From Prevotellaceae bacterium (lineage in GTDB: Bacteria > Bacteroidota > Bacteroidia > Bacteroidales > UBA932), in assembly GCA_031277925.1 (NCBI GenBank), contig JAITLJ010000200.1, positions 1-36,410 of the forward strand: a stretch of DNA of 36,410 bases, written 5' to 3'. The notes beneath the pieces are model-generated. The model searched no databases and was not told the origin of the DNA. It saw nothing but the letters and a program-made list of their open reading frames with translations. Shown piece after piece: positions 1,781 to 27,201 of the stretch (position 1 is the first letter of the stretch; each line of letters begins with the position of its first letter). Both the position numbers and the translations under genes were made by a program.

Positions 1781-2908
1781 TTAACGCGTAAACCGCAATG
1801 TGATTTCAACGATTTCCGACTGGCTTCCTGTTCTCAATTTCGGTCCCCAGCCGCCTGCGCCGGAGGTTATGTAATAATGCGTGTCGTTTTTTCTCAAATA
1901 TCCGTGCTGTTTTTCGTACACTAATTTTGTGATAAGCGTAAATGGAAATATTTGTCCTCCGTGCGTATGTCCCGAAATCTGTAAATCTATTCCGTTTTCC
2001 TGTGCCTGATTCAGGTTATACGGTTGATGGTCGAGTAAAATTATGGTTTTTTGTTTGTCAATATTTTGCAAAAGTTCGTCAAGGTTTTTGCGATTTTTGA
2101 CAGTTTTGTCGTTGCGACCTGTAATATAAATATCGCTGTCAATCAAAACAGAACTGTCCTGCAACATTATTATTCCTGCCGACTTCAAATAATCGACCGT
2201 ATTTTTCATATCGCCGTAACATTCATGATTTCCTGTAACTCCATAAACACCAAGCGGCGCCTGTAATTGCAAAAATTCCTCTTTCATGTTTTGTTCTACA
2301 AGCGGTTGAGAATGAGCATCGGCAATGTCGCCAACAAGCAAAATCATATCCGGTTTTCGCGAATTTATCAAATCCACAATTTTTTTCAAATACTGTTTGT
2401 CAATTGAATATCCCAAATGCAGGTCGCTTGCGGCAACTATTTTCAGTGTTTCTGTTTTCGCACTTTTATTGATGCTTATATCAAGTTTTTCGATTTTTAT
2501 ATTATTAAAATTATATCGTCCCCAAATCAGTATCAACACAACCAGTGCAAGCGTCGAAAATATAATTATCCGTTTTATTTCTATTTGATAAGGATTGAAC
2601 GGCAAAAAATTAAAATATTTATTCATAATATTTATCAAACTTATAAACAGCATTATAAGCATGAAATAAATACAGGCGACTATCCATGTTACCGAATAAT
2701 TGCTTATGATAACATTTATTTGTAAAGGCAAATATTCTCTGAAAAAAACGCCCGCTGAAACCGCTGCAACGATTAGCAAAAAAAACAGATTATATGTCAG
2801 TTTTACCCAAAAAATATCGGGTAAAATATTTTTTATTTTGAAATAAATATAAGAACTTGCAAGAACAAATATTATTATAATAATCAGTCTGAACATAATA
2901 TTTTTCAT
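1781..2908 (-). CDS. Membrane-anchored metallophosphoesterase (YkuE/YaeI-like)
   Basis: Several N-terminal TM segments, then AASDLHLGY, LLVGDIAD, GVTGNHECYG, ISGHTHGGQIFP metallophosphoesterase motifs. Confidence 0.9.
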   Translation of the reverse strand: MKNIMFRLIIIIIFVLASSYIYFKIKNILPDIFWVKLTYNLFFLLIVAAVSAGVFFREYLPLQINVIISNYSVTWIVACIYFMLIMLFISLINIMNKYFNFLPFNPYQIEIKRIIIFSTLALVVLILIWGRYNFNNIKIEKLDISINKSAKTETLKIVAASDLHLGYSIDKQYLKKIVDLINSRKPDMILLVGDIADAHSQPLVEQNMKEEFLQLQAPLGVYGVTGNHECYGDMKNTVDYLKSAGIIMLQDSSVLIDSDIYITGRNDKTVKNRKNLDELLQNIDKQKTIILLDHQPYNLNQAQENGIDLQISGHTHGGQIFPFTLITKLVYEKQHGYLRKNDTHYYITSGAGGWGPKLRTGSQSEIVEITLRFTR

Positions 2909-3052
2909 TTTTAATGTTAACTTTGATTTTATTTATATTTTAAAAGACATTCGGTATGAAAAAATATTTTAAAATCAATTGCTTTTCATGCAGGCAAAAT
3001 TAATAAATTAAGTGTTAATTCATTACCACGTTTGATTTTTTAACATTTCTTT

Positions 3053-3211
3053 TGTCTAATAATTTATATTATAGGCGATGGTAAAATATTGTATAATAAT
3101 GAATTATAAATTATTTTTTAAGCATTTAAAAAAACATAAAATTTGGAATTATCAAATAATTACATATCTTTGCGAAAATTAATTTTGTCCTATAATATAA
3201 ATTATTGGACA
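3053..3211 (+). repeat. 159-bp segment bounded by 23-bp inverted repeats; candidate invertible promoter segment (copy 1)
   Basis: Left TGTCTAATAATTTATATTATAGG (3053-3075); right CCTATAATATAAATTATTGGACA (3189-3211) is its reverse complement with 1 mismatch. Same-length homologue at 17393-17551. Confidence 0.85.
3142..3172 (+). promoter_or_regulatory. Bacteroidetes-type promoter reading toward SusC 1
   Basis: TTTG (3142-3145) - N19 - TATCTTTG (3165-3172), matching the TTTG / TAnnTTTG primary-sigma consensus of Bacteroidetes. Confidence 0.75.
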
Positions 3212-3443
3212 AGAAAAAATACATGTAAACTATTGATATACAAATATTTAAACAAACGAAACAAATAGAGGTTAAACTTCTTAAACAAAAAAGGGCTATG
3301 ACTATGACATGACAAAAAGAAACAAAAACACCTGCTTTAATTTAAAAGTATAAGGCATTTTTTAAATTTAATTTAATTAAAAACAAAAAAAACAACAATC
3401 AGTTATTAAAAAATTAACTAAAACTAAAATTTCAAAAACTTCA

Positions 3444-6400
3444 ATGATGAAAAATTTAATTTTATCTTCAGAAACACTGAAAAAAAGATTTTTATTAATG
3501 CTTCTTTTTATTGGTTTTTCTGTGTTAACATTTGCACAAACAAGAACAATCACGGGAACTGTGATTGACGAGAATGATGAAGCTCTAATTGCAGTTTCAG
3601 TATTTGTGCAGGGAACAAAAATCGGTACTTTTACCGATGCGAATGGAAAATACACATTGAATAATGTTCCCGAAAAAGCGACTCTTGTTTTTTCGAGTAT
3701 CGGTTATACAGCGCAGTCAATTGCTGTTGGCGACCGCAGCATTATTAATGTTACGTTAGTAGAAGAAGCCTCGCGACTTGAAGAGGCTGTAGTTACGGCA
3801 GAATTTGGCTTGAAACGCGTGGCACGGTCTATTGGTTCAAGCGTACAAAATGTAAAAGCCGAAGAAATTGTAGAATCAGGTCGTGATAATTTTATCACAG
3901 CCCTGCAAAGTCGCATTGCAGGTATTTCCGTTACATCTTCGGGAGGAACGCCCGGGTCATCTACAAATATTGTATTAAGGAGTGTTACTTCTATTTCGGG
4001 CAGTAATCAACCTTTGTATGTAATTGACGGCGTGCCGATGAACAATTCAACTTTCGACCCTCTCGGATTTGCGGGTCCTGAATTATTTTCAGCACGTTCT
4101 TTGGATTTTGCAACAATGGGTAATGACATTAATCCAGAAGATATTGAAAGCATGAGCGTACTGAAAGGAGCAGCGGCGGCGGCTCTTTACGGTTCGGACG
4201 CTTCAAATGGCGCTATTGTTATTACTACTAAAAAAGGTTCGTCTGGACGAAGTAAGGTACAATATGCAACAAGTATGCGCTTTGATAACGCTTACGGTTA
4301 TCCTGAAATACAAACCAAATATGCAAACGGTCGATATGGAACAACCAATTATTATTTCACATCACGCTATGGCGATTTGTATCCTGAAGGAACGGTACTT
4401 TACGATAATTTTAAGGCATTACTACAAACGGGTAAGACCTCTACGAACAGTTTTTCTGTTGATGGAGGAAATGATAAATTTACGCTTCGCGCTTCAGGAA
4501 AATATCTCGACCAAACAGGAGTTGTAAAAGGTACTGATTATTCACGTTTGAATTTAGGTATTTCTGGTAAAGCCGAAGTAACAAAATGGCTACAAATAGA
4601 TGGCTCGATGAGTTATGCCGAAACAACCAATACCAAAGTTGAAAAAGGTAATTACGGGCCTATGCCAAAAACATTTAACTGGCCATCTGTTGACGACATG
4701 TCAGTTTATTTAGATGAGGATGGCAAACACATGCGGTCGCCGGATTATTACACAGATGGAGACCTTATAAATCCATTGTTTGCAATAAATAAAAATAAAC
4801 TTTACGATGAAAATCAAAGTTTCACCGCATCATACACTTTAACTTTAAAACCGCTTGCAAATTGGTATGTAATTGCCAAAGCCGGTATTAATGCCAATTT
4901 CTATTCATACGAAGCAGGAGTACATCCTTACAGCGCTTCATATAATGATGGAAAAGGATCTTATAGTGTAGTGAACGGCAAAACGCTTTATCCATCATTA
5001 ACATTGTTGACAGGTTATAATCTGTCAATAAAAGATTTTGAATTTGGAGCTCAATTCGGCTATACGCAGTTAGAACGTACAACGCATAATCTCTCTTCCT
5101 ATGGAACAAATTTTATGGTTATTGATTTTATGGGACTTAACAATTGTGACGCAGAATCTATGCAAACATTAACAAGAAATACAACAAAACGCACACAAGG
5201 ACTATTCGGGCAGTTTGAGGCATCTTATAAAAATATGGCATTCCTTACATTACGCGGACGTAATGACTGGTCGTCAACTTTGCCAAAAGCAAATAGAAGT
5301 TATTTTTATCCTGCCTTAGAATTGTCATTTATAGCGTCGGAACTTTCTTTTTTGAAAAATCATCGTGTAATAAATTATCTCAAATTGCGCGCATCTGTTG
5401 CTCAAGTGGGTAAAGATCCTGATCCTTTGGCTATTTATCCCGCTTTACAGGCTACTGCCACAGCAGACGTGAACAGTGGAAGTTTTGGAGGAGGTTACCG
5501 TTACGGATATACAGGTCCTAATACAGCGCTAAAACCAGAAATGACAACAGAATATGAAGGCGGCTTTGAGGCGCGTTTATTAAAGAACAGGCTTAATCTG
5601 GATTTTTCCGTTTATACCCGTACTTGCGAAGATCAATATGTAAAAGGTTTTCGTTTAAGCTACGCAACAGGTTTTGTATTAAACAATATGAATGTAGGTA
5701 CTTTTGATACTTGGGGATGGGATTTTCATGCTGATGGAGATATTATAAAATCAAAGAATTTTACATGGAATTTTGGATTAAATATGAGTAAGGCAAAATC
5801 AAAAGTTACTTATTTACCCGAAAACGTTTCTGAATATTATGACGCATATACTTATGGAAACGTATCTGGTACACGTAACGGGATTAAAGTAGGATATTCG
5901 ATAACTACAATTACAGGAACTGCCAAGTTGCGCAATAAAAATGGAGATATTATTATTAATCCTTCAACAGGTCTTCCTATGGTTTCTGACCAATATACGG
6001 TTATAGGCGACAGAGAACCAAAATTAAGATATAATTTTACAACTTCGCTGAGCTATAAAGATTTTCGGCTAACGGCGGCATTTGCCGGACGATGGAAAAC
6101 CACGGTATTAAACGGAACAAAAAGAAGCATGCTATCAAATGGTTTAAGCTGGGAATCTGTTGAAATTCGTGAAATGAAACCTTACGTTTTCAAAGGCGTT
6201 TTAAATGATGATTTTGTAAATTCTGACAATCCTACCGTTAATACTATTGCTCACACTTATGGTATGGGAACAAGCGGAACCATATACGTAGGAACGCCCG
6301 AAGACTGGGTTGAAGAAGGAGTAAATTATCTGCGCCTTGAAGAAATCAGACTGTCGTATAATGTACCGAGACAGTGGTTGCAAAAAACATTCAGAGGAGT

Positions 6401-6584
6401 AGTGTCACAAGTAACTGTTTATGTTGCAGGTAACGACTTGATTACATTTACAAACTATTCAGGCATAGATGCCGTTGGAAATACAGCATCTGCCGCATTA
6501 GGCGGAACCGGTGGCGTTGGCATTGATACATATTCTATTCCAAGCCCGCGAGCTATTACTTTTGGTTTAAGTTTAACTTTGTAA
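3444..6584 (+). CDS. SusC/RagA family TonB-linked outer membrane protein (locus 1)
   Basis: Signal peptide ending TFAQ, carboxypeptidase-like repeat (ITGTVIDENDEALIAVSVFVQGT...), plug (LQSRIAGISVTSS...PLYVIDGVPM, SVLKGAAAAALYGSDASNGAIVITTKKG), barrel ending ITFGLSLTL. Confidence 0.95.
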   Translation: MMKNLILSSETLKKRFLLMLLFIGFSVLTFAQTRTITGTVIDENDEALIAVSVFVQGTKIGTFTDANGKYTLNNVPEKATLVFSSIGYTAQSIAVGDRSIINVTLVEEASRLEEAVVTAEFGLKRVARSIGSSVQNVKAEEIVESGRDNFITALQSRIAGISVTSSGGTPGSSTNIVLRSVTSISGSNQPLYVIDGVPMNNSTFDPLGFAGPELFSARSLDFATMGNDINPEDIESMSVLKGAAAAALYGSDASNGAIVITTKKGSSGRSKVQYATSMRFDNAYGYPEIQTKYANGRYGTTNYYFTSRYGDLYPEGTVLYDNFKALLQTGKTSTNSFSVDGGNDKFTLRASGKYLDQTGVVKGTDYSRLNLGISGKAEVTKWLQIDGSMSYAETTNTKVEKGNYGPMPKTFNWPSVDDMSVYLDEDGKHMRSPDYYTDGDLINPLFAINKNKLYDENQSFTASYTLTLKPLANWYVIAKAGINANFYSYEAGVHPYSASYNDGKGSYSVVNGKTLYPSLTLLTGYNLSIKDFEFGAQFGYTQLERTTHNLSSYGTNFMVIDFMGLNNCDAESMQTLTRNTTKRTQGLFGQFEASYKNMAFLTLRGRNDWSSTLPKANRSYFYPALELSFIASELSFLKNHRVINYLKLRASVAQVGKDPDPLAIYPALQATATADVNSGSFGGGYRYGYTGPNTALKPEMTTEYEGGFEARLLKNRLNLDFSVYTRTCEDQYVKGFRLSYATGFVLNNMNVGTFDTWGWDFHADGDIIKSKNFTWNFGLNMSKAKSKVTYLPENVSEYYDAYTYGNVSGTRNGIKVGYSITTITGTAKLRNKNGDIIINPSTGLPMVSDQYTVIGDREPKLRYNFTTSLSYKDFRLTAAFAGRWKTTVLNGTKRSMLSNGLSWESVEIREMKPYVFKGVLNDDFVNSDNPTVNTIAHTYGMGTSGTIYVGTPEDWVEEGVNYLRLEEIRLSYNVPRQWLQKTFRGVVSQVTVYVAGNDLITFTNYSGIDAVGNTASAALGGTGGVGIDTYSIPSPRAITFGLSLTL

Positions 6585-6595
6585 AATTATATAAA

Positions 6596-8554
6596 ATGAA
6601 AAAAATATTAATAATATTACTATCAAGTGTTCTTGTATTTTCAAATACAGGTTGTGATGCTTATTTGGATGTAAACAAAAATGTTGATGCTCCCGACTAT
6701 GTTGATGATTTTCTATATCTTGCAGGGATTCAACAATCATATCAAGATTATTATTATGATATAAGAGCAGTAGGCCCATTAACGCAAATGATGGGGACAA
6801 CAGATTATACTTCTTTTGCAAATCATTATTATTCAAAAGCGAGCGATGCAGCAGGTCAAATGTGGCGATTGTTGTGGCTGCAGGGAATTAACCTTGAAAA
6901 TATGATAACTCAGGCGACAGCAAGCGAACGCTGGACATTGGCCGGTATGGGCTATGCAATGAAAGCCTACACTTGGGACATGCTTACAAAATATCATGGA
7001 GAGATGCCTTGCAAACAAGCATACGAATCGGGATTATTGGCTCACGAATATGACTATCAGTATGATATTTATCCCATTGTTAGAGGATGGGCTTACAAGG
7101 CTATTGAATATCTGTCGAAAACAGATAAAACGATTTATGGAACGCAACTTTCTGATAATGACTACATTTATGGAGGAGATGCGGAAAAATGGAAAAAATT
7201 TGCATACGCAGTATTAGCCCGTAATTATATTTCACTGTCTAATAAAACTGATTTTGTAAGCAGCGGATTTGCTGACTCTGTAATATATTGTGTTAATAAT
7301 TCTTTTGCATCATCATCTGATGATGCAACAATCAGAGTTAGCACAGATGATGAAATAGATACTAAATTTATGAATTTTTGGGGCGTATCGCGTGCAAATT
7401 TATCAAGAATATATTTTCAGCATGAATACGCTGTACAAATTATGACAGGAACAGTGCCTCAATATGATAAAAATACAGGAAATAAAGTTCCTAATTCAAG
7501 CAATCAGAATATTCTTGGCGTTTATCCTTATGAACTCAATCCTGTTCAAATTCTTGCTGATACTGTTTCATCCGTTTCTGGACATTTTGACCCGCGTACC
7601 ACTTTATTATTTGGATGGACATCGCCTAAATATTCTTCTTTCACACTTGAAGATACTGTAACGATAATCAATGATTTAGGATTGCCAAATTTACTCGATA
7701 CTGTAAGATTGCCTTACATAGAAGTATTTACTACCGAGGTGGATTATATTCGTAGATATGTAAGCAAAAGGTTTTACGGAGGTTCATTTACCACTGAAGT
7801 AGGTCCAATCGGGTCGGCGCCAAGTTTTTACGGAAGAAACGCAAGTGGTTCAACCACTTCCGATGGAGTTGGACGCTGGTTGTATAGAAACGGAGCGCCT
7901 TATATATTAACAACTTTTGCCGAAATGAAAATGTGCGCAGCCGAAGCATACTGGAAAAAGGATGATAAGGCAAGCGCTTTACAAGCATTGCAGGATGGCA
8001 TTGCAGGTCACATGGATTTTTGCCAAAAATACATTTACTTAACAACTATAGGTGGTGATAAAATTACTCCAGCTACATTTAGATTATTGGCAAATGAATA
8101 TCTTGCAGGTCCTTATGTTGGCGGTTTAACGGTAAACGATTTGACTCTCAGCCACATTATGATGCAAAAATGGGTATGCTTATATCCGTGGGGCGCTCAT
8201 GAAGCCTGGGTTGATTTGCGTAAATATCATTATGATATAGATTATACAGGAGATTATCCGAAAACAGGTAACGGTTGGGAACGAAATGAAGTGTATATGA
8301 AATGGGACGATAATGAAGACAAGGTTTATAAAGGTTTTTACTTGCGTCCTGCAAATGTGGAGCATCGCAAAACCGCGTACAATATTGATAATGATGGCTC
8401 TCCGTGTTACCGTATTCGTCCTCGCTATAATTCCGAATATATGTGGAATTTGCCAAGTTTGAAGAAATTATTGCCCATACCTGGAGATGCCTTAAATTAT
8501 CACTGCTCTATTCCATGGTTTGCTTATCATGGAGAAATGCCAACAAATTTATAA
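6596..8554 (+). CDS. SusD/RagB family (SusD-like) nutrient-binding lipoprotein (locus 1)
   Basis: Immediately downstream of SusC; lipobox-like VFSNTGCDAYLDVN; SusD-type helical sequence and C-terminal MWNLPSLKKLLPIPGDALN. Confidence 0.88.
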   Translation: MKKILIILLSSVLVFSNTGCDAYLDVNKNVDAPDYVDDFLYLAGIQQSYQDYYYDIRAVGPLTQMMGTTDYTSFANHYYSKASDAAGQMWRLLWLQGINLENMITQATASERWTLAGMGYAMKAYTWDMLTKYHGEMPCKQAYESGLLAHEYDYQYDIYPIVRGWAYKAIEYLSKTDKTIYGTQLSDNDYIYGGDAEKWKKFAYAVLARNYISLSNKTDFVSSGFADSVIYCVNNSFASSSDDATIRVSTDDEIDTKFMNFWGVSRANLSRIYFQHEYAVQIMTGTVPQYDKNTGNKVPNSSNQNILGVYPYELNPVQILADTVSSVSGHFDPRTTLLFGWTSPKYSSFTLEDTVTIINDLGLPNLLDTVRLPYIEVFTTEVDYIRRYVSKRFYGGSFTTEVGPIGSAPSFYGRNASGSTTSDGVGRWLYRNGAPYILTTFAEMKMCAAEAYWKKDDKASALQALQDGIAGHMDFCQKYIYLTTIGGDKITPATFRLLANEYLAGPYVGGLTVNDLTLSHIMMQKWVCLYPWGAHEAWVDLRKYHYDIDYTGDYPKTGNGWERNEVYMKWDDNEDKVYKGFYLRPANVEHRKTAYNIDNDGSPCYRIRPRYNSEYMWNLPSLKKLLPIPGDALNYHCSIPWFAYHGEMPTNL

Positions 8555-16590: not shown

Positions 16591-16613
16591 TACAGACTGT
16601 AAAATTAAAGGCT
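16579..16613. repeat. 35-bp perfect palindrome (17-bp arms, 1-nt centre)
   Basis: AGCCTTTAATTTTACAG-A-CTGTAAAATTAAAGGCT, overlapping the second arm of the lon terminator. Confidence 0.85.
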
Positions 16614-16642
16614 GTTACTCTACACAGTCGCTCCTTAATAAA

Positions 16643-16852
16643 TAGTCGCTCCTTACGAATAAAAAAGGACAAAGCTAAAACATTAAAAATTTCGGACAAT
16701 TATTTCTTTCTGTTAATTTGTCTTGACACAAAAAGAAGATAAAGAAAAAGTTCATATTTTGCCGAATTTTTGCCCGTATATATAAAACTCGGTATTTTGA
16801 TTCAATAATTTATTAATTATTAACCGTTTCGACCCTCTTTAAGGAGCGACTA
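16643..16852 (+). mobile_element. MITE-like non-coding element, 210 bp, perfect 13-bp terminal inverted repeats
   Basis: TAGTCGCTCCTTA (16643-16655) and TAAGGAGCGACTA (16840-16852). Internal sequence shared with copies near 26.2, 31.7 and 36.1 kb. Confidence 0.65.
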
Positions 16853-16934
16853 AATACCGAAACTGTTTATTATTAATATGAAACCTTTGCAAGGCAAAAG
16901 TGTTGATAACATGTTAACATTTAGGTGATTATAA

Positions 16935-16966
16935 TTTGTTTATGTGAAATATTTCATGTATCTTTG
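16935..16966 (+). promoter_or_regulatory. Orphan Bacteroidetes-type promoter
   Basis: TTTG (16935-16938) - N20 - TATCTTTG (16959-16966); no substantial ORF follows before the terminator at 17180. Confidence 0.55.
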
Positions 16967-17018
16967 TGTCATGTTTAATAAAAAAAGACAACAAATGGGT
17001 AAGTCATTTGCGGTCATT

Positions 17019-17117
17019 CCGCACGTAATGTACAAAGATATGTCGTTTTTGCCATAATTGCTCTTTAAATCCTTGAATTTTAAATCTTTAAATTGCGAAT
17101 TTTGTCCCTAACGGGAC
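17019..17117 (-). repeat. Truncated inverted copy of the repeat at 1-300
   Basis: Reverse complement reads GTCCCGTTAGGGACAAAATTCGCAATTTAAAGATTTAAAATTCAAGGATTTAAAGAGCAATTATGGCAAAAACGACATATCTTTGTACATTACGTGCGG, matching 110-212. Confidence 0.8.
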
Positions 17118-17179
17118 AAAATGTTGGCAGAAAATTTCATGCAAAACACTGTCTATCAGGCAATAACAGAATTAAAACA

Positions 17180-17214: not shown

Positions 17215-17392
17215 CATTTTTATACCAATATTTTGTTTCTGCGGACGTTTTTACTTATAACTTTTTTAAAAAAAATCTTTAAATTTTAAATTGTTTCTAT
17301 ATCACTTCATTTCGTTTGTAACGATACTAATTTACAGACAGAAAACAATAAATTGCCAAACTGTTTTATGTTAAAACTCCAATAAGATTTTG

Positions 17393-17551
17393 TGTCTTAT
17401 AATTTATATTATAGGCGATGGTAAAATATTGTATAATAATGAATTATAAATTATTTTTTAAATATTTTAAAAAATCTGGTATTTGCAATTATCAAATCAT
17501 TATATATCTTTGTAAAAATTAACTTTGTCCTATAATATAAATTATAAGACA
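17393..17551 (+). repeat. 159-bp segment bounded by perfect 23-bp inverted repeats; candidate invertible promoter segment (copy 2)
   Basis: TGTCTTATAATTTATATTATAGG (17393-17415) and its exact reverse complement CCTATAATATAAATTATAAGACA (17529-17551). Confidence 0.88.
17482..17512 (+). promoter_or_regulatory. Bacteroidetes-type promoter reading toward SusC 2
   Basis: TTTG (17482-17485) - N19 - TATCTTTG (17505-17512), at the same offset inside the segment as in copy 1. Confidence 0.75.
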
Positions 17552-17589: not shown

Positions 17590-20500
17590 ATGAAGAAATT
17601 TTTATTAGTATTAATTATTTTAATTATTGGGATTTGCCCTGCCTATTCGCAAGAAAAAATTACAGGAACTGTGATTGATGATGCAACAGGCGAAGCATTA
17701 TCCTTTGTATCGGTTATTGTAAAAGGAACTATTACTGCTGTAACTACAAGCGATAACGGTTCATTTTCCATAACTGCTCCCGCTACGGGAATATTGGTAT
17801 TTTCGTTTATTGGCTACGAAACAGTAGAAGTAGCAATAGACGGAAAAAGAGAAATAAATGTAAGGCTTAAATCTTCCACAACAATATTGGAAGAAGCCGT
17901 TGTAACAGGTATGACGAAAATTGACAAACGTTTGTTTACCGGAGCATCCGACCATATTTCGGCTGAAACGGCTAAATTAAACGGTATTGCTGATGTAAGC
18001 CGCGCTTTGGAAGGTCGTTCGGCAGGAGTTTCCGTTCAAAACGTATCGGGCACTTTTGGAACAGCGCCAAAAATAAGAGTGCGCGGAGCAACTTCAATTT
18101 ATGGAAGTTCAAAACCTTTATGGGTTGTTGATGGAATTGTAATGGAAGATGTAGTTGAAGTTGATTCTGACGGATTGTCATCGGGCGATGCCGAAACGCT
18201 TATCAGTTCAGCAATAGCAGGACTTAATGCCGATGACATCGAAAGTTTTCAAATATTGAAAGACGGTTCGGCGACTTCTATTTACGGAGCGCGCGCAATG
18301 GCAGGAGTTATTGTTGTAACGACAAAGAAAGGTAAGGCTGGCGTAAGCAGTATCAATTACAACGGAGAATATACAGTGCGTCTGGTGCCGCGTTATGCCG
18401 ATTTTAATATTATGAATTCTCAGGAACAAATGGGAGTTTATCAGGAAATGCAGCAAAAAGGCTGGCTAAACCTTTCGGGTACAGTGAGAGACAGAGAAAG
18501 CGGAGTTTACGGCAAAATGTATCAGTTGATAAATTCTTACGACCCGATAACAAAAACATTTAAACTGATAAATACGGAAGAGGCAAAAAACGCTTACCTG
18601 CGTCTGGCTGAAATGAGAAATACAGACTGGTTCAACGAACTGTTTAAACCGAGTATAATGCAATCTCATTCGGTAAGCATGTCGGGCGGCACGGATAAAA
18701 CTACATATTATGCTTCGTTAAGCGCATTGCTTGATCCGGGCTGGTCAAAGGCAAGTTCTGTTAATCGTTACACGGCAAATACAAATGTTAATTACAGCAT
18801 ATACAAAAATTTGTCGTTGAATCTTATTTCAAATGCTTCGTATCGTAAGCAGAAAGCGCCCGGAACATTAAGTCAGGACGTAGATGTAGTATCGGGAGAA
18901 GTAAAACGCGATTTTGACATTAACCCTTACAGTTATGCGCTGAACACATCACGAACAATGAGTCCTAACGAATATTATACGCGTAATTATGCGCCATTTA
19001 ATATTATATCCGAATTAGACAATAATTACATGGATATAAACGTAACCGATTTGAAGTTTCAGGGCGAGTTAAAATGGAAGCCTCTGAAAAGTTTGGAACT
19101 GGCTTTACTTGGCGCCATTAAATATTCGGCGTCTACAATAGAACATAATATCAGAGATAACTCGAATCAGGCTCTGGCCTATCGAGCCATGCCCGATGCA
19201 ACAATACGCGACAGCAATCCTTTTCTTTATACCGACCCTGATATTCCTTATGCTTTACCTATTACGGTATTGCCCAATGGCGGTATATACAATCGCACTG
19301 ACAATAAAATGCTTGGATACGACTTACGCACAACTGCAACATGGAATCAAACATTCAACGATATTCATATTGTCAATTTTTTCGGAGGAATAGAATTAAA
19401 TTCAATTAACCGCGAAAGATCGTGGTTCAGAGGCTGGGGACGCCAGTATACCTTAGGCGATGTTCCTAATTACGCTTATCAGGTGTTTAAACAGGGAATG
19501 GAAGAAAATACCGACTATTTTACAACAGGAATGTCGCGATCGCGCGATGTCGCATTTTTTGCTTTAGGAACATATTCGTACAAGACAAAATATACTGTTA
19601 ACGGAACACTGCGCTACGAAGGTTCGAATAAACTGGGAAAATCACGTTCGTCGCGATGGCTGCCCACATGGAATATTGCAGGTTTATGGAACATTTACAG
19701 AGAAGCGTTTTTCAGCAAATTTGAATCCGTATTGTCTCATGCAGCACTGAAAGCATCGTACAGTTTGACAGCCGACAGAGGTCCTGGCTTTGTAACAAAT
19801 TCGCAAGTTATTATCCACAGCGTAAGACCGTGGCGACCTACCGAAAGTTCAAAAGAAACCGTTTTGGAAATATCCGATCTGGAAAACAGCGAACTTACAT
19901 ACGAAAAAAAGCATGAACTGAACACAGGTATTGATTTGGGATTTTTGAACAATAGAATAAATTTGACTGCCGATTTGTACTGGCGCAGTAATTTCGACCT
20001 TATAGGACCTGTTGCAACAACAGGAGTAGGCGGAAATGTGGACAAATATGCAAACGTCGCAACAATGAAATCGCAGGGAGTCGAATTTTCGCTTACAACA
20101 AAAAACATCAATACGAAAGATCTGGAATGGACTACAAGTTTTATTTTTTCGTACAGCAAAAATGAAATAACAGAACTGCTTGCAAAGAAAAGAGTTATTG
20201 ACCTTATCAGCGGAACAGGTTTCGGCATGGCAGGATATTCGTACAGAGGATTATTCTCCATTCCTTTCAAAGGATTAAACGAAGATGGATTACCTGTTTT
20301 CATTAACGAAAAAGGCGAACTTACAACTACCAGTATCAATTTTCAGGAAATAGAAAAAATAGGCTTCTTGAAATATGAAGGACCAACAGAGCCTACGCAT
20401 TTCGGCAGTCTGGGAAATATATTCAGATATAAAAACTTCAGGTTGAACGTATTTATTACCTATTCATTCGGCAACAAAGTTAGGCTTGACCCTGTATTTA

Positions 20501-20907
20501 AAGCTGGATATTCGGATGTGCGTTCTATGCCTAAAGAATTTAAAAACCGCTGGATATTGCCGGGAGACGAAGCATATACCAACATTCCCGTCATTCCAAG
20601 TTATCGCCAATATTATGATATAAGTTATTTAAATTATGCTTATAATGCCTATAATTATTCGGATGCCCGAATAGCAGATGGCGGTTTTATACGGCTCAAA
20701 GAAATATCTCTGTCATACGATTTTCCGTCGAACTGGATTTCGCCACTGGGATTTAAAACTCTTAGCGCAAAAATTCAGGCTACAAACCTGTTTTTGCTCT
20801 ATGCCGATTCAAAATTAAACGGACAGGACCCTGAATATTTCCGCTCGGGTGGAGTTTCTTTACCTGTACCAAAACAAATTACAATGACATTAAAATTAGG
20901 TTTATAA
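17590..20907 (+). CDS. SusC/RagA family TonB-linked outer membrane protein (locus 2)
   Basis: Signal peptide ending AYSQ; [24 protein letters not shown]; plug [58 protein letters not shown]; C-terminal [12 protein letters not shown]. Confidence 0.95.
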   Translation: [1105 protein letters not shown]

Positions 20908-20919
20908 AATAATATGAAT

Positions 20920-22473
20920 ATGAAAAAATATCTTATATCAATAACGTCTGTTATATTAATGATGTTAAACATTTCGTGCAACGAATATCTCGACGAAGTA
21001 CCCGATAACAGACTTGAAATAGACAACGATGAAAAAATTACCAGACTTTTGGGAAGCGGATACGCCGACCATTTGTTTGTATTCACTACCGAAATGATGG
21101 CTGACAATGTTGACAACATAGGCGACAGACTGACATCATATTCTCGTCTTCAGGATGAAATGTACGCATGGTCGGATATTCAGGAAATAGGTAACGAATC
21201 GCCAAAACTCGTATGGCAAACCTATTATCATGCTATAGCAACAGCCAATCAGGCGCTTGATGCTATAGAAAAAGCGGGAAATCCTTCACGCTTGAACCCG
21301 CAGCGAGGCGAAGCTCTTATGATTAGAGCATTCCACCATTTTTATCTCGTAAATGTATTTGCAAAACACTATTCTACAGCCAGCGGCGACACCGACCTCG
21401 GTATTGTGTATATGGAAAAATCGGAAACAACGGTAAGCCCTCAATACAACCGCGAACCTGTTGCTGAAATTTATAGAAAAATTGAACGCGATATTGAAGC
21501 AGCGCTTCCTTTGATTGATGACAATATTTACGAAATACCTAAATATCATTTCAACCGCAAAGCTGCTTATGCCTTTGCGGCACGCTTTTATCTGTTCTAC
21601 AGAAAATACGATAAGGTTATAACCTGCGCTAATGAAGTGCTTGGTGAAAATCCTGCCAGAGTACTGCGCGATCTTACCCGCATTTCAAGCCTTGTGCAGG
21701 AGTACGGACCTATTGCCGAAGATTATGTAAAACCCGAACAGAATGCAAATTTACTGCTGATTGCAGGATATTCTCAATTAGGTCGGATATTCGGAAATTA
21801 TTCAACAGGAAAAAAGTACATGCATTCCCGATATTTGGCTGGTACAGAAACAACTCAATGTAACGGACCTTGGGGTATTTATGTCAGTGGAATGTTTCGT
21901 CTTCCATCTTTTTCATATTCGGCAGGATACATAGCAGTGCCTAAAATACCAAACCTGTTTGAATATACCGACCCTGTAGCAGGAATAGGATATCGCAGAA
22001 CTGTTTTTCCTGCTCTGCATGCCGACGAAACATTACTCTGCAGAGCCGAAGCATATATTATGCAGGAAAACTATGATGCAGCTACGGAAGATTTGGCTTT
22101 ATGGATGTCGCAACATACAATTTCAACGGTAACTCTTTCGCGAGACATTATAAACAACTTTTATTCTACTCAACAGTATTACAACCCAGATGATCCTACG
22201 CCGAAAAAAAAGTTGAACCCCGAAGTTCCCATTGTTTCCGAAGAACAGGAAAACTTTTTACAATGTCTGGTGCAATTCCGCCGTATCGAAACAATATTCG
22301 AAGGCTTGCGCTGGTTTGATATTAAACGCTTCGGCATTGTAATATATCGCCGTTACGTTGATGTAAACAACTCGGTTACTGTTACCGATGAACTGAAATT
22401 AGACGACCCGCGCAGGGCGATTCAACTGCCGGCATCTGTTATAAGCGCAGGGCTTGAACCTAATCCAAGATAA
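20920..22473 (+). CDS. SusD/RagB family nutrient-binding lipoprotein (locus 2)
   Basis: Lipobox MMLNISCNEYLDEVPDNR; EALMIRAFHHFYLVNVFAKHY (SusD TPR-like); ETIFEGLRWFDIKRFG C-terminal motif. Start at 20914 or 20920. Confidence 0.92.
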   Translation: MKKYLISITSVILMMLNISCNEYLDEVPDNRLEIDNDEKITRLLGSGYADHLFVFTTEMMADNVDNIGDRLTSYSRLQDEMYAWSDIQEIGNESPKLVWQTYYHAIATANQALDAIEKAGNPSRLNPQRGEALMIRAFHHFYLVNVFAKHYSTASGDTDLGIVYMEKSETTVSPQYNREPVAEIYRKIERDIEAALPLIDDNIYEIPKYHFNRKAAYAFAARFYLFYRKYDKVITCANEVLGENPARVLRDLTRISSLVQEYGPIAEDYVKPEQNANLLLIAGYSQLGRIFGNYSTGKKYMHSRYLAGTETTQCNGPWGIYVSGMFRLPSFSYSAGYIAVPKIPNLFEYTDPVAGIGYRRTVFPALHADETLLCRAEAYIMQENYDAATEDLALWMSQHTISTVTLSRDIINNFYSTQQYYNPDDPTPKKKLNPEVPIVSEEQENFLQCLVQFRRIETIFEGLRWFDIKRFGIVIYRRYVDVNNSVTVTDELKLDDPRRAIQLPASVISAGLEPNPR

Positions 22474-25938: not shown

Positions 25939-26124
25939 ATTCAAAGCCGCCGTCGGGCGTAGCGTTTTTTTTCTTAAAAATAACAGTTTTTTATAAAAAA
26001 CCGCAAAGCCTTCTTTCGATGCGGCAAGCAATAGCATTTAAAAACAACAGCAGGCAGATACTAATTCTGCCCGCCATTTTCATTATTAATCAGTTACAAA
26101 AACGCCATCAAACTGTAATTTATA

Positions 26125-26362
26125 TAGTCGCTCCTTAATAAATATTGAAACTGTTAATTATTAATATTTACAGACATAAATTATCGAATAAAAATACCGA
26201 GTTTTATATAGATGCAGACAGAAATTCGGCAAAATACGAACAATTGTTTTTTTCTATAAATATGTGTCCCGTTAGGGACAGTTTTTTCGTCATTGCATTA
26301 AATTATCTGACAGAAAATTTTAATGTCTTATTATTATCTTTTTTATTCGTAAAAAGCAACGA
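26125..26362 (-). mobile_element. Copy of the TAGTCGCTCCTTA-bounded MITE-like element carrying a GTCCCGTTAGGGAC module
   Basis: TAGTCGCTCCTTA at 26125-26137, degenerate right end near 26350-26362; internal ATCGAATAAAAATACCGAGTTTTATATAGATGCAGAC...ATTCGGCAAAATA shared with other copies. Confidence 0.6.
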
Positions 26363-26391: not shown

Positions 26392-27201
26392 TTACCATGT
26401 TATAATTTTATCAACTATTTCCCTCTGTTCGTTTATCGTTCGTCGCAAATAAATTCTTGTTGTTTCAATGCATTTGTGTCCCATTAAATCGGCTAAGAGC
26501 GCAATATCATTGCACTTTTTCAGAAAATTTTTAGCAAATCGATGACGAAAGGAATGAGGATAAATTACTTTGGGATTTAATCCATATTTTCGTGCAAAAA
26601 TTTTCAGATATCGCGAAATTGTTCTTGCACAAAGTCGTCCGCCATATTGGGTTTGAAAAATATAACCTAACGAAATCTTTTCTTTATTCAACCATACCAT
26701 TGCTTGCAGGCGTAAATTTTTTGGGATATATAATCGCCTGATATTTCCGCCTTTGGTATATATATCCAAATGTCCCGCTTCTACATGTTCGACTTTTATC
26801 TGTATCAGTTCGCTGATTCGGGCTCCTGTTGCCGTCAAAAACCAAACAATAAAATACCATTTAATAAGTTTGTCATGTTTGAGTTGATTTTTAAAAAATT
26901 TATAGTCGGCTTCGCTAATCACATTCTCAAGGAAGTTTTTTTGCTGTATTCTTACAAATTTTATTTTTAAACGATCTTTTTCTTGAAATTCAAGAAATTT
27001 GTTTAAGGCCTGTAACCGTGCATTTACGGTTTCGGGTTTGAAATTTTCAATCAGCCATACTTTATAGGCTAAAAGATTCTCTTTATTAACATTTTCGTAA
27101 AGAAGAAAATAAGTGTTAACAGCGCTAGTATAAGCTGTAATTGTGTTTTTTGCAAGTTCATTTTTTTCAAGAAATTTTTGAAATTTTGTTATCATATTCA
27201 T
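26392..27201 (-). CDS. Tyrosine recombinase / phage-integrase family protein
   Basis: SAM-like N-terminal core-binding region (FLEKNELAKNTITAYTSAVNTY); catalytic ATGARISELIQIK, HSFRHRFAKNFLKK, LMGHKCIETTRIYLR. Confidence 0.93.
   Translation of the reverse strand: MNMITKFQKFLEKNELAKNTITAYTSAVNTYFLLYENVNKENLLAYKVWLIENFKPETVNARLQALNKFLEFQEKDRLKIKFVRIQQKNFLENVISEADYKFFKNQLKHDKLIKWYFIVWFLTATGARISELIQIKVEHVEAGHLDIYTKGGNIRRLYIPKNLRLQAMVWLNKEKISLGYIFQTQYGGRLCARTISRYLKIFARKYGLNPKVIYPHSFRHRFAKNFLKKCNDIALLADLMGHKCIETTRIYLRRTINEQREIVDKIITW

Follow-up and report, generated by a model that had tools for sequence, protein, structure and literature searches.

Putative phase-variable promoter switches bounded by dif-like sites upstream of SusC genes in a genus of Prevotellaceae bacteria

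The window analysed here is a stretch of 36,410 nucleotides from a Prevotellaceae bacterium. A short promoter-bearing segment upstream of its first SusC gene (SusC1) is best explained as a phase-variable invertible promoter; the genome contains about 14 such elements. We hold this reading with high confidence on the basis of sequence comparison; the confidence applies to inversion and not to the enzyme responsible. Two observations carry it. The segment has the opposite orientation at the orthologous locus of a related species (G007), between homologous flanks, and other copies occur in both orientations relative to a sequence box outside the element and to the gene start. Comparison also provides the repeats, the promoter sequence, the multi-copy family, the identity of the cores, the dif-like sites and the restriction to one genus. 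From the same comparisons, surface variation through promoter flipping is very probable in these bacteria, at sites that look like copies of dif, the site of chromosome-dimer resolution.

In the mechanism that we propose, a tyrosine recombinase would bind one site in each arm of the element (ATAA-N6-TTAT with dif-related half-sites), and strand exchange inside a 6-bp core would flip the 113-bp segment between the arms. In the assembled orientation the promoter would face SusC1 and the switch would be ON; when flipped, the promoter would face away and the switch would be OFF. One enzyme would probably flip the element of the second SusC gene (SusC2) and the other copies as well, leaving each cell with its own combination of surface receptors. 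Inversion in living cells, switching of transcription and the identity of the recombinase are inferred. What was one candidate switch becomes a testable regulon, with about 14 elements in the genome, 151 in the genus and a named candidate enzyme.

Promoter elements in the window and in the genus

The SusC1 element was originally predicted from 23-bp inverted repeats at 3053-3075 and 3189-3211. These do match at 22 of 23 positions, and the match extends to 27 of 30 between a left arm at 3046-3075 (plus strand) and a right arm at 3189-3218 (minus strand), which lie 113 bp apart. Across 150 Markov simulations of the intergenic region, ungapped 30-nt inverted repeats reached 25/30 at best, with a mean of 21.5; the arm match is therefore above chance. 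Within the left arm, the predicted recombination site reads GTCTAATAA-TTTATA-TTATAGGCG, with the core at 3063-3068; the right arm has the core TATAAA at 3196-3201. The segment between the arms (3076-3188, plus strand) is ON in the assembly; the promoter-bearing stretch as a whole measures 157 bp, or 159 bp when counted from 3053 to 3211. A promoter predicted from sequence and conserved in the copies lies inside it at 3142-3172 on the plus strand. As had been described, it consists of TTTG (3142-3145), N19 and TATCTTTG (3165-3172), and points rightward at SusC1. The element thus has two features of an invertible promoter of the Bacteroidales type, namely inverted repeats (27/30, 113 bp between them) and a Bacteroidales promoter (TTTG ... 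TAnnTTTG) inside them that faces the gene. Outside the element, on its gene-distal side, a TTAACA box at 3040-3045 (plus strand, inside TTTAACATTTC) serves as a landmark. No Rfam match was found in the interval 2900-3500, and a comparison with viral contigs gave no match.

The putative target of this switch, SusC1 (3444-6584, plus strand), encodes a TonB-dependent receptor with Pfam Plug and CarbopepD_reg_2 domains, and its partner SusD1 (Pfam SusD-like_2) lies at 6596-8554 on the plus strand. The ATG at 3444 is 233 bp beyond 3211, the distance first given. The sequence between the right arm and the ATG (3219-3443, plus strand) is a conserved leader (5' UTR) with a small ORF starting MTKRNKN, as seen in an alignment of the genome of the window (G000) with G001 and G007. 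At about 225 nt beyond the arm, it is longer than the leaders at other SusC loci. Conservation of the leader is strong in the three species, and by eye there is a possible hairpin (TGCYTTA ... TAAGGCA) after the small ORF. The original prediction also had the inverted promoter turn towards a metallophosphoesterase gene ending at 2908. That gene is indeed on the minus strand, but 2908 is the start-codon end of the ORF (1781-2908) and not its 3' end. As an alternative target the gene was rejected: no homologue above 45% identity was found in the related loci fetched.

The window contains a second predicted invertible promoter element, at 17393-17551 on the plus strand (17390-17551 in the genome search), which is 89% identical to the first and ON toward SusC2. 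Its arms are at 17394-17415 and 17529-17550, with TTTG at 17482-17485 and TATCTTTG at 17505-17512. SusC2 (17590-20907, plus strand), also a TonB-dependent receptor and the putative target of this switch, starts 40 bp beyond the arm; its partner SusD2 (Pfam SusD-like_3) is at 20914-22473 on the plus strand. Both the second element and a tyrosine recombinase gene at 26392-27201 were absent from the original prediction. The intergenic stretches 16600-17160 and 26100-26330, which flank the SusC2 operon on its two sides, look alike by eye (AGTCGCTCCTTAA, GTCCCTAACGGGAC).

Both switches belong to the family of about 14 elements in G000, whose copies elsewhere in the genome were found by genome search at 72-90% identity. 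The promoter is retained in the aligned copies, and in several places a difference in one arm is repeated in the other. Related genomes of the same genus have element families of their own. Using a pattern of two ATAAT-N4-ATTAT sites spaced 105-135 bp apart, we counted 12 paired-site elements in G000; all 11 genomes of the genus have such elements, 151 in total and 5-23 pairs per genome; such shared sites are what a regulon of one master invertase calls for. No paired-site element was found in 50 genomes of other genera, and the reversed control of the pattern matched in one genome only. Five of the 14 G000 copies lie within 400 bp of a contig end, compared with about 8% expected, an excess that repeats alone can cause. 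Some copies are cut by contig ends or lie close to them.

Sites in the arms and the candidate recombinase

Each arm contains ATAA-N6-TTAT, the layout of sites for tyrosine recombinases of the Xer kind. The 6-bp core is the same in both arms of 62 of 64 elements, whereas shuffling within genomes 20,000 times gave 44.8 such elements on average and 56 at most. The outer 5 nt match between arms in just 26 of the 64. A high match in the core together with a low match outside it is what strand exchange inside the core would be expected to leave.

A serine invertase was rejected, as no protein of the G000 genome matches the Resolvase domain. Five tyrosine recombinases are present. We read two of them as XerC-like and XerD-like and two as integrases of mobile elements, from their sequence, their length and the genes around them; the fifth is a solo enzyme. 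This last one, a Xer-like protein of 269 aa (PF00589) encoded at 26392-27201 on the minus strand of the window, is our candidate invertase. Its catalytic residues R128, K150, H216, R219, H242 and Y251 are invariant with the XerC-like and XerD-like proteins, and its best match in the PDB is the XerC-like recombinase 4a8e. TALE proteins also matched in the PDB search; no single stretch passed, and we set these matches aside as likely repeat artefacts. Within the genus, 8 of 11 genomes carry an orthologue of the solo enzyme, versus 2 of 50 outside it (Fisher P = 2e-6). The two outside the genus (G026 L171 and G027 L172) lie among inverted hsdS genes. One repeated hsdS stretch in G027, GATAACGGACATTAT, also has the ATAA-N6-TTAT layout.

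From this phyletic pattern and the family context alone, we lean towards the solo Xer-like enzyme as the one most likely to flip the elements. Two observations count against it: the gene is not beside an element, and it was not found in G004, G006 and G009, which carry elements, although their assemblies, 69, 77 and 83% complete, belong to the less complete ones. In several species the gene stands alone near leuS or ruvA. An invertase encoded next to its own switch was considered and rejected, there being no convincing arm-like site by the gene in the loci scanned.

A possible but less likely agent is the host XerC/XerD pair, which would flip sites derived from dif while the solo enzyme has another role. 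XerC-like and XerD-like proteins are present, and G004, G006 and G009 have elements and no detected solo invertase. Of 296 genomes of the order, 96 have a GTCNTATAATNNNNATTATGTTAA site, 94 of them in single copy, and its reversed control gave no hit. In G231 the GC skew switches sign around this site at 60-180 kb, although it hardly deviates from zero over the 20 kb next to it; three further genomes gave no clear-cut skew result. We infer that the site is dif, which in G000 reads TTTGTCCCATAA-TCTATA-TTATGTTAAG. Judged by their letters, the arms resemble dif and are tyrosine-recombinase sites. The resemblance is closest in G003, G004, G008, G009 and G010, here called type-2 species, where both half-sites of the arms (GTCCNATAA, TTATGTTAA) are those of the genus dif, which would suit XerC/XerD, and the core differs, mostly reading TTTACA.

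The same comparison weakens the case for XerC/XerD in G000 and the other five species. There, the outer half is related to the XerC half of dif, but just 11 of 116 outer half-sites are identical to it. The inner half is not the XerD half; in G000 it is mostly of a TTATAGG type and not TTATGTTAA, which does not qualify as a XerC/XerD-dif site. The scarcity of exact XerC halves favours a dedicated enzyme. Moreover, Xer matches are spread across the order whereas the elements are restricted to the genus. The cores point both ways. The arm core is unlike the dif core in G000, G002, G007, G008, G009 and G010, which could insulate dif and suggests a way for the genome to avoid recombination between terminus and switch; in G001, the dif core equals the usual arm core. 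The specific proposal that XerC/XerD flip many promoters through dif-derived sites, with altered cores excluding the true dif, remains tentative and, on present sequence data, rather doubtful. If it were true, surface phase variation and chromosome segregation would share machinery. The likeness raises the question whether phase variation grew from copies of the dimer-resolution site and still uses XerC/XerD. We prefer the solo invertase over XerC/XerD, without proof, and the acting enzyme is unresolved.

Orientation and present state of the elements

At the orthologous SusC1 locus, G000 and G001 have the interior of the element ON whereas G007 has it OFF, and the leader and outside flanks are conserved. 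The same arrangement is seen between paralogous SusC loci within G001: L076 is ON, L069 is OFF and their flanks are near-identical. The two interiors are 75% identical after one is inverted in silico and 53% identical as they stand. Both orientations between conserved flanks, as an invertible promoter should display, are thus found between species and between paralogues. At many loci SusC starts 29-65 bp beyond an arm, whether the element is ON or OFF. For some elements of G005 and G010, orientation was taken from alignments in place of the simple promoter pattern. All ON and OFF calls are states of the assembly consensus and do not report switching within a population.

The TTAACA box provides a fixed landmark for orientation. 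In 49 of the 64 elements it lies within 60 nt outside one arm; the background is 3.5% per scanned window. With the box as reference, 21 elements have the promoter ON and 26 have it OFF; 2 have a box on both sides and 15 have none. Where a nearby SusC start allowed the gene side to be judged, the box is on the opposite side. Its distance from the arm clusters near 8, 18, 27 and 39 nt, a spacing that suggests helical phasing. Counted by eye, TTAACA is also present at 13 nt from four dif sites of the genus. In two copies, L012 2693-2849 (C45 of G000) and L158 3026-3178 (C22 of G008), the inverted repeat continues far past the arms and TTAACA occurs on both sides; an assembly artefact is not excluded. 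L013, L057 and L068 encode a 181-aa protein that is 87-93% identical among the three species and whose start lies 40-43 bp from an arm; by promoter orientation it is OFF in each of them.

The two orientations could be the traces of past inversion in elements that are now mostly locked. Decayed arms in C164 and C44 would fit this, as would the lack of direct evidence for current switching, and both points count against the inversion reading as well. We nevertheless consider such fossil switches unlikely, as the cores agree in 62 of 64 pairs and neither ON nor OFF is rare over the elements that we examined. The decayed copies are L018 450-622 (C164 of G000) and L020 1648-1820 (C44 of G000). The right arm of the C164 copy lacks its outer half, and its promoter may be locked ON toward SusC.

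The weakest alternative, which we regard as highly improbable, is a MITE-like mobile repeat with an outward promoter and no inversion in place: the elements are short and multi-copy, have terminal inverted repeats and in some copies lack a gene start directly downstream of the promoter, but flanks are homologous on both sides of an inverted interior at orthologous and paralogous loci, the spacing between gene start and arm is short in both states, and the two arms of each element share a core that varies between elements. By its own terms, the original prediction would have been refuted by numerous copies that bear target-site duplications and are unlinked to SusC genes. Many copies exist, yet the short distances from arm to SusC start speak against that scenario, and the shared 6-bp core fits site-specific inversion and not a MITE. 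No target-site duplication was seen in the alignments examined; the survey was not systematic and the orthologous loci compared were all occupied. An invertible promoter remains the reading that we prefer.

Comparison with known inversion systems

A limited literature search turned up no account of invertible promoters flanked by dif-like sites. Sites of this kind are used by integrating microviruses of Bacteroidetes (PMC3091885), and these and XerC/XerD-dif share with the genus the ATAA-N6-TTAT sites and, in type-2 species, half-sites that match dif. The genus sites differ from XerC/XerD-dif in being paired, inverted and about 150 bp apart around a promoter, with 5-23 pairs per genome. An Xer-family recombinase that inverts DNA for phase variation is described at the mba locus of Ureaplasma parvum, where inversion is XerC-mediated and XerC binds the inverted repeats while CodV binds a putative dif (PMC3599477). 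The abstract of that account concerns two loci and no large promoter family.

The setting of the solo enzyme's relatives recalls another class. Loci of hsdS genes are where shufflon invertases are found, for example PsrA of Streptococcus pneumoniae (PMC7096588), and the relatives in G026 and G027 likewise lie among inverted hsdS genes. The candidate gene itself differs from the PsrA type in being solo, near leuS or ruvA in several species, and its proposed targets are promoters.

By analogy, the genus system would work like the master invertases of B. fragilis, which are the closest precedent. According to one report, Mpi acts on 13 regions, Tsr0667 on three SusC/SusD clusters and nine other regions, and Tsr19 on two promoters (PMC4747536). 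Tsr0667 carries out shufflon-type inversions at its three clusters and nine regions, whereas single promoters would be flipped in the genus system. Tsr19 serves two loci and is encoded beside one of them, whereas G000 has about 14 loci, none of them next to the candidate gene. The likeness to Tsr19 lies in the proposed action itself: a tyrosine recombinase that inverts a TAnnTTTG promoter, both nearby and at a distance, and thereby controls surface genes.
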